Shown in pieces: positions 48,515 through 61,741 of a DNA stretch of 64,000 nucleotides. Source of the DNA: a bacterium (GTDB taxonomy: Bacteria > JAMCPX01). The notes under the pieces were generated by a model. That model was given only the letters and a program-made list of their open reading frames with translations, did not search any database and had not been told where the DNA came from. Both the position numbers and the translations under genes were made by a program. Position 1 is the first letter of the stretch, and each line of letters opens with the position of its first letter. The stretch lies in the NCBI GenBank assembly GCA_021792615.1, contig JAJYUJ010000008.1:14579-78578 (forward strand). Reading direction: 5' to 3'.

Positions 48515-48794
48515 AAACCCGCATAATGCGTTTTAAAAATAAGGAAGTTTATGCAATGAGTGATGGGGTACCCACCCGGCCGGGAAGGGTGCGGATGAGG
48601 TCTCATGAAGACGACCATAGACCTCACCTTAATCCTCTCCTAAGAGGAGAGGAAAAGAAAAGAAGAAAATTCAGCCCCCTAAGAAATGATTTTCCCTGTC
48701 AAGGGGATAAGTAAGGTCTCCCCCTGTCAAGGGGGAATGAGGGGGTTGTGGATCGCGGGAATAAGTAAATTTCCTTATTGCATTTTTCGGGTAA
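48515..48794 (+). repeat. Element B2: inverted copy of B1 with an internal insertion
   Basis: Nearly identical to B1 over most of its length, but it carries about 28 extra bases (around 48709-48736) that repeat the CCCCCTGTCAAGGGG motif. Another end-like fragment precedes it at 48489-48514. It fills the middle of the 532-bp argF-argD gap; the rest holds the argF inverted repeat and unremarkable sequence. Confidence 0.75.
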
Positions 48795-53006: not shown

Positions 53007-53038
53007 TTAATTTCCCCCTGATAAGGGGGACAAAGGGG
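53007..53038. repeat. CCCCCTGATAAGGGGG palindromic repeat at the xerC 3' end
   Basis: One unit of the repeat that is arrayed near 60.4-61.1 kb, followed by the same ACAAAGGGGGTTT tail type. It encodes the last residues of XerC and lies between xerC and hslV. Confidence 0.75.
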
Positions 53039-53963
53039 GTTTCGACCCCTCACTTTTCATTCCCCGCTGCTTCCCCTTGTGTGCCCGCGGATGCGCATCA
53101 TCGTAAACCTTCATGAGCCTGTCCATACTTGTGTGCGTGTAAATCTGTGTCGTCGAGATGCTCGAATGACCGAGCAGCTCCTGAATAAACCTTAAATCCG
53201 CACCTGCATCAAGCAGATGTGTTGCGAATGTATGCCGTAAAGAATGCGGGCTTATGTGTTTGTTGATGCCCGACTTCTGCATATATTTTTTTACAATCAT
53301 ACCAACGGCCCTTCGTGTAAGCCTTTTCCCGTATTTGTTTACAAACATAGCCCCTGTTTGTGCCTTGCCCTGTAAAAAAACCATTCTTTCCTTCAGATAA
53401 TGCCCTACGACCTCAACAGCCTTTTTATTGACCGGAACAACACGCTCTTTTCTTCCCTTCCCGATAACCCGCACATAGCCTATATTAATATCAATATTCT
53501 CAATATCCAGTCCTACAAGTTCAGAAACACGCAATCCGCTTGCGTAAAACAGTTCCAGCATTGTCCTGTCCCGCAGGGATAAGAAGCTGTCGCCCTCCGG
53601 CAGTTCGATGAGGCCGAATACCTCGTCAACATTCAGAAATCCAGGAAGCAGCTTGTCCTTCTTCGGTATTGCTATAAGTTCGGCAGGATTCATCCCGATA
53701 TGATGTTCCCTCAGTAAAAACTTGTAGAATGTTTTTAAAGCGGCAAGCTTCCTTCCCACAGAACTTTTCTTGTCCGTTTTCAGAAGCGAGGTTATGAAAC
53801 TCCTTATCTCCGGCAAGCCTGCCGATTCAAGAGATTTCGCGGGATGTGTGGTCTTTAAAAATGCCGAAAATTGCCGCAGGTCAGAGAGGTAGGCATCAAG
53901 AGTATTGCCGGATGCGCCTTTCTCTACGTTGAGATAGGTACTGAAGGCATCAATATAATCCAT
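53007..53963 (-). CDS. xerC: Tyrosine recombinase XerC
   Basis: 318 residues from [10 protein letters not shown]; an upstream in-frame Met adds seven atypical residues. All catalytic residues are visible: Arg145, Lys169, His240, Arg243, His266 and Tyr275. Resolves chromosome dimers. The usual product is about 295-300 residues; here the tail [12 protein letters not shown] is encoded by the palindromic repeat. XerC versus XerD cannot be told for certain, but the hslVU context favours XerC. Confidence 0.9.
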
Positions 53964-57504: not shown

Positions 57505-57527
57505 CCCCCTCTTAAGATAAGAGGGGG
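57505..57527. repeat. Palindromic CCCCCTCTTA hairpin after topA
   Basis: CCCCCTCTTA, AGA, TAAGAGGGGG: perfect 10-bp stem with a GCAAGGGGG tail, a variant of the C5/G5 repeat. The rest of the 270-bp gap before mutS shows only another short hairpin (CCTCTTA/TAAGAGG near 57620) and no gene. Confidence 0.6.
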
Positions 57528-57691
57528 CAAGGGGGCGTTATGAGATTTATACGCAAGACCCAACATTTAAAGGAACAAGGTGTAATAAGGAATGATTAAA
57601 ACCGTAACTTCCTTAATCCCTCTTAACCTAAGAGGGATAACGCAGGAGAATCCCCTGCTTAATCTCAGAGGATACAATCTAACGGATAACC

Positions 57692-60294: not shown

Positions 60295-60420
60295 GTCATT
60301 GCGGGGAGCGATTTTGCGACGAAGCAATCTGCACGCACAAGGATTGCTTCACTATCGTTCGCAATGACGGGTATGCTGGTGTCATTGCGAGGAAGGAAAG
60401 ACGAACCAATCTCTTTCCGC
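60295..60420. repeat. CATTGCGAGG / GACGAAGCAATC dispersed repeat
   Basis: GTCATTGCG at 60295 and GCAATGAC at 60361-60368 form inverted ends around GACGAAGCAATCTG. A second TCATTGCGAGG unit follows. Same family as 4657-4827, 62759 and 63840. Confidence 0.6.
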
Positions 60421-60424
60421 ATTT

Positions 60425-60514
60425 CCCCCTGATAAGGGGGCATCTCCCGTATCTCCCCCTGATAAGGGGGCATCTCCCGTATCTCCCCCTGATAAGGGGG
60501 ATAAAGGGGGTTTA
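60425..60514. repeat. Array of three CCCCCTGATAAGGGGG palindromes
   Basis: Palindromes at 60425, 60455 and 60485 with a 30-bp period; the 14-base connector is identical. The array ends ATAAAGGGGGTTTA. Bases 60451-60514 are repeated exactly at 61005-61068 on the other side of the DUF559 gene. The GGGGG at 60506-60510 lies nine bases before the ATG. Confidence 0.9.
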
Positions 60515-60519
60515 AAAAG

Positions 60520-61071
60520 ATGAAACCACAATTTATTCCTTATAATAAAGAATTAATTAAAAATGCTAAGGAAAACAGGAAAAATCCAACTGTAGCAGAG
60601 AAAAAACTGTGGCGTGATGTACTTAGTAACAAGCAATTTACCTTGCATAAATTTACAAGACAAAAGCCTTTGGATAATTTCATAGTTGACTTTTACTGTT
60701 CCGAGCTTCTGTTAGTTATTGAAGTTGATGGCGACACGCATGCCAATCAGGAAGAATACGACAAACAACGCAGCAGAATTTTATTAGAAAAATACAATAT
60801 CCAAGTCATAAGATACTACAACAGTGAAGTATTAAAAAATATTGAAGGCATACGCACAGATTTACTTGAGAAAACAAAACAAAGAAAACAACAAATCAAA
60901 CCAACCCCCCAGCCCCCCTTGTCAGGGGGGATAAGAAGGCTATCCTCAGACAAAGAAAAAAGCCTGGTTAAGGAGACTCCTCCGGGACAAGGGGCATCCC
61001 TTTCATCTCCCCCTGATAAGGGGGCATCTCCCGTATCTCCCCCTGATAAGGGGGATAAAGGGGGTTTATGA
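60520..61071 (+). CDS. DUF559 nuclease-like protein with repeat-encoded C-terminus
   Basis: 183 residues. The core (about 1-128) has the layout of DUF559 proteins, a Vsr/PD-(D/E)xK-like endonuclease fold: LWRDVLSNKQF, Asp57 in NFIVDFYC, Glu68-Val-Asp70 in LVIEVDGDTH, and KYNIQVIRYYNSEV. The tail from about 127 is not domain sequence: PPLSGG and two PPDKG units come from the palindromic repeats that follow. The ribosome site appears to be the GGGGG of the upstream repeat. Codon use is AT-rich compared with mutS. Function unknown; DNA cleavage is expected from the fold. Confidence 0.8.
   Translation: MKPQFIPYNKELIKNAKENRKNPTVAEKKLWRDVLSNKQFTLHKFTRQKPLDNFIVDFYCSELLLVIEVDGDTHANQEEYDKQRSRILLEKYNIQVIRYYNSEVLKNIEGIRTDLLEKTKQRKQQIKPTPQPPLSGGIRRLSSDKEKSLVKETPPGQGASLSSPPDKGASPVSPPDKGDKGGL
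61005..61068. repeat. Downstream copy of the palindrome array
   Basis: A 64-bp perfect direct repeat of 60451-60514, with palindromes at 61009 and 61039. It is translated as the end of the DUF559 protein. A related CCCCCCTTGTCAGGGGGG unit lies inside the gene near 60914. Confidence 0.9.
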
Positions 61072-61081
61072 GAGAGGTTAA

Positions 61082-61741
61082 ATGAAACTTTGTAAATCCC
61101 CCTACATTATCTATGCTGTGGTAATGCTTGTCCTGATTGCGGCAAGCAGGCTGGCCTTGTCCAGGCCGTACCTCGGCGTTATCGCTGCCGTAGTCTTCCT
61201 TTATATACCCATCGCCTTATTGTTTGTAAAAAAACAGGTTCCCGGGGTCTATGGCATAAGTAAAAAGGGTTTTGGGAAGTCCATAGCCAGGTCATTGCTC
61301 GCCGCCATCATACTATTCCCGCTCTACATTGCAGGGTTTTACGTTTACATGAGGTATGTTTATAATCTTCGTCTGTCATTCCCAACGGCCGGGTTCATCC
61401 GTCAACCGCAGACGCTGCTCTTTGTTCTCAACATGCTCTTAATGGTCGCAATACCCGAAGAGATTTTTTATAGGGGATATGTACAGTCAGAACTGCACAA
61501 ATGCGATAAGCGGACGATAAACCTGTTCGGTGTTAAGGCAGGGATGTCCTTTTTGATGGTCAATGTACTGTTCGCAGCAGGCCACCTCATCGTTTTGCCG
61601 GATATTGCCCGGCTTGCGGTGTTTTTCCCGGGCCTTGTGTTTAGCTGGCTCAGAGAAAGGGACGATAACATAGCAGGCTCTGTCGTATTCCACTGGCTCA
61701 GTGATGTGCTTTCCTTTTTCCTGTTTGCCCTGCTCAGATGA
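61082..61741 (+). CDS. CPBP-family intramembrane metalloprotease (CAAX/Abi type)
   Basis: 219 residues with about six membrane segments. The Rce1-like motifs are EEIFYRG, FAAGHLI and VVFHWLSD, providing the Glu and His residues of the active site. Substrate unknown; such proteases process prenylated or other membrane-bound proteins, or act in phage or bacteriocin defence. Follows the DUF559 gene by 10 bp, but composition is like core genes. Ribosome site GAGAGG. Confidence 0.85.
   Translation: MKLCKSPYIIYAVVMLVLIAASRLALSRPYLGVIAAVVFLYIPIALLFVKKQVPGVYGISKKGFGKSIARSLLAAIILFPLYIAGFYVYMRYVYNLRLSFPTAGFIRQPQTLLFVLNMLLMVAIPEEIFYRGYVQSELHKCDKRTINLFGVKAGMSFLMVNVLFAAGHLIVLPDIARLAVFFPGLVFSWLRERDDNIAGSVVFHWLSDVLSFFLFALLR

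Follow-up and report, generated by a model that had tools for sequence, protein, structure and literature searches.

The locus described here raises the question whether a small nuclease gene moves together with the repeats at its borders, and whether it also spreads these repeats. The gene lies in a window of 64,000 nucleotides, the whole stretch of a bacterial contig that was analyzed. A sequence-only reading of this DNA proposed that a DUF559 nuclease bracketed by two identical arrays travels with, or spreads, a palindromic repeat, much as RAYT transposases do with REP sequences. Sequence comparison confirmed the identity of the arrays: positions 60451-60514 and 61005-61068 agree in all 64 bases, and the neighbouring bases on both sides differ. 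The hairpin CCCCCTGATAAGGGGG is present five times at the locus (60425-60440, 60455-60470, 60485-60500, 61009-61024 and 61039-61054) and once more at 53014-53029, 3' of the end of xerC, where a single unit had indeed been reported. The ORF at 60520-61071 encodes the DUF559 protein and its final 21 codons are the right array, in agreement with the 20 or so noticed before. The features of the window are:

48719-48748, plus strand: solitary unit with loop variant GTCA (sequence)
53011-53040, plus strand: solitary unit after xerC (sequence)
57505-57636, plus strand: second DUF559 cassette, decayed and different in flavour, upstream of mutS, with a unit (57505-57535), a gene-start remnant and an inverted unit (57611-57636) (sequence, relatives)
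60425-60470, plus strand: two additional hairpins in tandem (60425-60440, 60455-60470), repeated at 30 bp, on the left side of the cassette; at this place relative G003 carries just one unit
60451-60514, plus strand: left copy of the 64-bp direct repeat, a two-unit array (sequence identity; direct-repeat survey, L002)
60485-60512, plus strand: left unit of the cassette, consisting of hairpin CCCCCTGATAAGGGGG, spacer ATAAA and third run GGGGGTT, the mirror of AAGGGGG (sequence; mirror rule across loci)
60520-60876, plus strand: DUF559 nuclease core, PF04480 at residues 12-118 (profile match, family alignment, predicted fold)
60877-61071, plus strand: C-terminal tail of the ORF, composed of translated inverted unit, spacer and right array, outside the nuclease domain (the PF04480 match ends at residue 118)
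60899-60930, minus strand: right unit of the cassette, inverted, forming the in-frame start of the repeat-encoded C-terminal tail (sequence)
61005-61068, plus strand: right copy of the 64-bp direct repeat, read as a duplicated target unit, compare the filled G003 allele (sequence identity; direct-repeat survey; G003 alleles)

The direct arrays had been taken as the brackets of the element. They are real, but the element itself is the gene between inverted units. The DUF559 core (60520 to ~60876) sits between such units: the third G-run at 60506-60512 is a component of the left unit, and the inverted copy AACCAACCCCCCAGCCCCCCTTGTCAGGGGGG at 60899-60930 lies immediately 3' of the core, within the 3' end of the ORF. 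Unit, nuclease and inverted unit form a cassette of ~430 bp, of which the window holds one copy. The left array had also been regarded as the apparent ribosome site of the gene. This was not supported, since the AAAAAG that separates the unit from the ATG would serve no less well. The cassette site is flanked by mutS and a gene for a CAAX-type protease (61082-61741) of the myxosortase group (Mrt_core 112 bits). A repeat family of another type (tcattgcgagg), resembling CGTC-tagged REPs, adjoins the cassette at 60295-60393, at a site shared with relatives G004 and G005. CGTC repeats show no association with transposase genes (PMC3733652), and a partner gene may therefore be missing for the tcattgcgagg type as well. 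At the place matching window positions 57505-57636, relative G003 carries an intact DUF559 cassette of a different flavour where the window has a decayed one, indicating that this region has been hit repeatedly.

A triplex-forming repeat has been known since the 1990s, without known means of spread. The unit found here has two arms, one rich in C and the other in G, and a third run, of G, in mirror image to the G-rich arm. The palindromic repeat of the earlier reading was correct as far as the hairpin is concerned, but the unit is a triplex motif instead of a plain palindrome. Judged by its sequence, it is a BoxC/PIT/intrastrand triplex motif (TM) of class II, and the pyrimidine arm, purine arm and mirrored third strand of this class can be read directly in the window unit. 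The third run was compared with the purine arm in 123 units whose two arms are asymmetric: it fitted the mirror better in 90 and a direct copy better in 3, with 30 ties. In the third run opposite the purine arm, A is faced almost only by A or T, and G by G. Triplex formation by the isolated strand has been shown for the E. coli motif, a flavour other than that of the window (PMC4666352). Holder (2015) described 23 motifs in E. coli MG1655 and did not find mobility genes near them (PMC4666352). A role as terminator or promoter was rejected, since the motif was found by others to be without either activity (PMC4666352).

In the source genome CCCCCTNNNNAGGGGG has 29 sites and the reversed pattern, used as control in these pattern searches, has none. 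This is far beyond chance, and chance palindromes were ruled out with controls at 0 or near 0. Three other DUF559 matches in this genome, two of which are cut by contig ends, are flanked by units of equal build and other flavours wherever sequence exists.

The window protein is a member of the DUF559 family (PF04480). It matches the profile at residues 12-118 with 98.5 bits against a curated cut-off of 20.6. This is its sole Pfam match and the Y1 (HUH) domain PF01797 is absent. All family-invariant residues (E27, D57, E68, D70 and R98) are kept, as is the nearly invariant H74. The EVDGxxH region retains its conserved acidic and histidine residues and the predicted fold (pLDDT 88) is of the Vsr-like PD-(D/E)XK type, while the Vsr profile itself (PF03852) had no match in G000 or in the window protein. 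In Foldseek the prediction matched 3HRL, which is NGO0050 of Neisseria gonorrhoeae, and the catalytic domain of I-Bth0305I (PDB 3R3P), the second-best fold match (E 1.4e-3). A sequence profile recovers both proteins too, I-Bth0305I with E 7e-4.

The pairing of this gene with the unit is not restricted to the window; the earlier observation is one case of a general pattern. In a first sample of 80 DUF559 loci, chosen by protein similarity alone and scanned with a heuristic, strand-specific unit detector, correctly oriented units were present upstream in 62 of 79, downstream in 68 of 78 and on at least one side in 72 of 77. Within 250 bp of the gene there were 3.7-4.0 units per kb, versus ~0.08 per kb further out, a difference of ~50 times. 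A second, independent sample of 389 genomes spread over bacterial phyla gave units on at least one side of 57 of 73 strong DUF559 loci, compared to 1/25 Y1_Tnp and 1/30 Vsr control genes of the same genomes. The repeats expected at DUF559 genes elsewhere are thus carried by most of them. Many detector-negative loci carry variant units when inspected by eye, some with a second hairpin ahead of the third run. Units also occur near DUF559 genes of viral contigs (L152-L168); in one group of these (L157 and L160, for example) a second hairpin separates the main hairpin from the third run. The DUF559 gene of N. gonorrhoeae (L277) is flanked on either side by CCTCTCCC-type units that seem to be in direct, not inverted, orientation.

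Unit and nuclease co-vary. At least 8 units of one common flavour, counted with one flavour pattern per search, were found in 30 of 82 genomes with a strong DUF559 match versus 23 of 307 without (OR 7.1, p 6e-10). The repeats are thus not equally frequent where DUF559 is lacking; equal frequency would have spoken against the earlier reading. This and the other statistics assume independence of loci or genomes, an assumption that relatives violate. Where the DUF559 flank was of the common flavour, the genome held a median of 14.5 further copies, against a median of 0 in genomes with DUF559 of other flavours (p 6e-4). Across 119 loci, unit and nuclease sequences were correlated with a Mantel r of 0.50, and of 0.45 after exclusion of close pairs and control for GC. 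Several, not all, of the 23 unit-rich genomes without a full DUF559 gene are congeners of gene-bearing genomes. G140, with 165 common-flavour units and no DUF559 match at all, is the best place in which to seek another spreader or a lost gene. Some DUF559 genomes, such as G131, are rich in a unit flavour unseen at their sampled DUF559 gene.

The compact cassette of gene and inverted units is widespread, occurs at different sites and is polymorphic at the site in the window. Related cassettes at different sites align from outer unit edge to outer unit edge and no further (L028 versus L001, 430 bp; L029 versus L027), and some within-genome pairs share sequence beyond the units (L051/L053, L050/L054, L001/L004). 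The empty site predicted for relatives was found in the G003 bin. At the position of the window cassette, contig C116 carries a single unit and lacks the gene, and contig C208 has the gene between direct copies of a unit-containing 35-bp stretch that start 524 bp apart. The flanks of both contigs are 97-98 % identical. This difference of 2-3 % points to two haplotypes, and a simple assembly artefact was rejected on the same ground. Elsewhere, G001 has a unit without the gene at this site and G004-G008 have neither. The polymorphism may reflect either gain or loss of the cassette. The 64-bp repeat of the window is the configuration of the filled G003 allele with tandem extra units, and looks like a duplicated target unit. 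Direct repeats of at least 18 bp bracket 42 of 176 DUF559 genes, in contrast to 0 of 300 mismatched pairs; their length varies between 18 and 105 bp, and most loci have none. The hallmarks of a classical insertion sequence were not found, as the window protein has no transposase domain and there is no short target duplication of fixed length.

Cassettes also reside inside other genes. Whole DUF559 cassettes lie in frame within DUF1156, MmeI-type, Eco57I-type and HsdR genes (L171, L177, L182, L189, L192, L211 and L219). Units in frame are translated as tails, which accounts for C-terminal sequences such as LTPTLSQGERE and PSPSGRGQGEG beside DUF559 domains. In DNA methylase genes DUF559 forms the middle part of inteins (L238 and the first DUF559 of L181), and L216 has a further intein-like ORF with DUF559 in its middle; splicing-domain matches are weak and below the Pfam cut-off, with C...HN/C borders visible in L238. 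The N-terminal intein part of all three loci carries translated tandem units.

In E. coli the DUF559 gene is ycjD, present in ~3,360 of 5,426 complete genomes and a marker of phylogroups A, B1 and C (PMC12817139). A single query gave both the motif counts and the presence or absence of ycjD. The sampled strains with ycjD had 13-28 motif places (median 19) and those without 1-16 (median 4), a contrast that follows phylogroup and is therefore not independent evidence strain by strain. Lineages without ycjD, among which O157:H7, still have ~12-16 motifs. Between sapF and fabI (L280, L281, L282), ycjD and a triplex motif occupy the place of the eefRABCD operon of other lineages (PMC12817139). The 3' end of ycjD is partly duplicated downstream here, and its last codons read a unit remnant.

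These data make the DUF559 nuclease a strong candidate for the mover of the triplex repeat. Probably, the end repeat of the cassette is the target of its Vsr-like nuclease, whose action would drive the spread of cassette and repeats. Two steps are inferred, cutting of the unit by the protein and copying through repair. The nuclease would recognize, and nick or cut, units of its own flavour; the form recognized may be a hairpin or triplex on single-stranded DNA. Repair of the break would then copy the cassette into the cut unit, which would yield both the inverted units at the ends and the direct duplication of the target unit. Partial events may give rise to solitary units and tandem arrays. 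Of the two halves of the earlier proposal, that the nuclease travels with the repeat is borne out by the cassettes, and that it spreads the repeat is supported by the statistics, short of proof.

The main rival is homing into repeats dispersed otherwise. The cassette would then target triplex repeats that are spread by replication slippage, recombination or another enzyme, and the nuclease would have no part in spreading the solitary copies. The unit-rich genomes without DUF559, the closeness of the nuclease to the homing endonuclease I-Bth0305I and the presence of DUF559 within inteins are in line with such a role. So is the site in the window, where the filled allele looks as if the cassette had been inserted at a unit already present, and where G001 has the unit without the gene. 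However, dispersed units share the flavour of the resident DUF559 flank, unit and nuclease co-vary, and the units are the cassette's own ends. Homing is considered possible, with clearly lower probability than spreading by the nuclease. It is unlikely that DUF559 is a repair or genome-guarding nuclease, acting in Vsr-like mismatch repair, as proposed for Caulobacter VsrA, or in defence, with incidental or regulatory units nearby. A DUF559 protein has been linked to DNA damage in cells without cytosine methylase (PMC12907096), and DNA methylase and restriction genes harbour several of the cassettes. Against this, Vsr genes lack units (1/30), neither promoter nor terminator activity of the motif was found by others (PMC4666352), and the units are inverted on both sides and form the cassette ends. 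Spreading by RAYT/IS200-type Y1 transposases, with DUF559 as bystander, was rejected as highly improbable: RAYTs are the known partners of REP palindromes and the source genome encodes two PF01797 proteins, but Y1_Tnp loci lack units (1/25), PF01797 presence had no significant effect on unit richness within the DUF559-positive or DUF559-negative strata of the 389 genomes, and the unit anatomy is unlike that of GTAG- and CGTC-tagged REPs.

Spreading of cassette and repeats by the nuclease would, if proven, define a new class of element. We hold at even odds the broader claim that DUF559-triplex cassettes represent bacterial mobile elements of a new class, whose nuclease would recognize the triplex or hairpin of its own end repeat and would have dispersed BoxC/PIT through many phyla, including E. 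coli (ycjD) and Neisseria. Repeat and protein family were each known already; their pairing was not found in a library of 5.39 million open-access papers. BoxC/PIT/triplex motifs are short repeats of wide distribution among bacteria, for which the published survey gave no source of mobility (PMC4666352). The matched nuclease gene in E. coli K-12 (ycjD) makes mobility testable in a laboratory strain. The pairing also suggests a biological role for DUF559, a large family of unknown function, and extends the logic of REP-RAYT to an unrelated enzyme.

Several known systems are related to the cassette. Rickettsia palindromic elements insert in frame into protein-coding genes and, to our knowledge, carry no nuclease gene. 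They share palindromic repeats in frame within coding sequences, and differ from the whole DUF559 cassettes that are inserted in frame here; they are mentioned in a MITE review (PMC10969869). BoxC/PIT/intrastrand triplex motifs have the same C-rich arm, G-rich arm and mirrored third strand, are mostly intergenic and occur as inverted pairs (PMC4666352). The E. coli triplex motif is one common flavour of the units found here. BoxC/PIT was described as an orphan without mobility genes, whereas the present units are the ends of a nuclease-gene cassette. NGO0050 (PDB 3HRL) and E. coli YcjD are DUF559 members with units close by, uncharacterised and known from structure or fold prediction only. I-Bth0305I, an EDxHD (Vsr-like) homing endonuclease, is related to DUF559 in fold and sequence, and DUF559 likewise occurs inside inteins. 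Homing endonucleases, however, copy into the empty allele of one site, while an account of DUF559 must also cover the solitary units found at many sites. The closest parallel in logic is that of REP/REPIN and RAYT (TnpA-REP), in which a single-copy nuclease gene is flanked by inverted palindromes that are also dispersed in the genome, with matched flavours. RAYT is an HUH Y1 enzyme, in contrast to the PD-(D/E)XK, Vsr-like fold of DUF559, and REP palindromes contrast with the triplex motif of DUF559 cassettes, which are often multicopy and change sites. REPs are defined by a GTAG or CGTC tag where the palindrome begins to pair (PMC3733652), and the unit has no such tag at its foot. The likeness to RAYT and REP proposed at the outset thus holds for the logic and not for membership: the DUF559 cassette works like REP-RAYT, with a nuclease lacking the Y1 domain and a repeat of another class.
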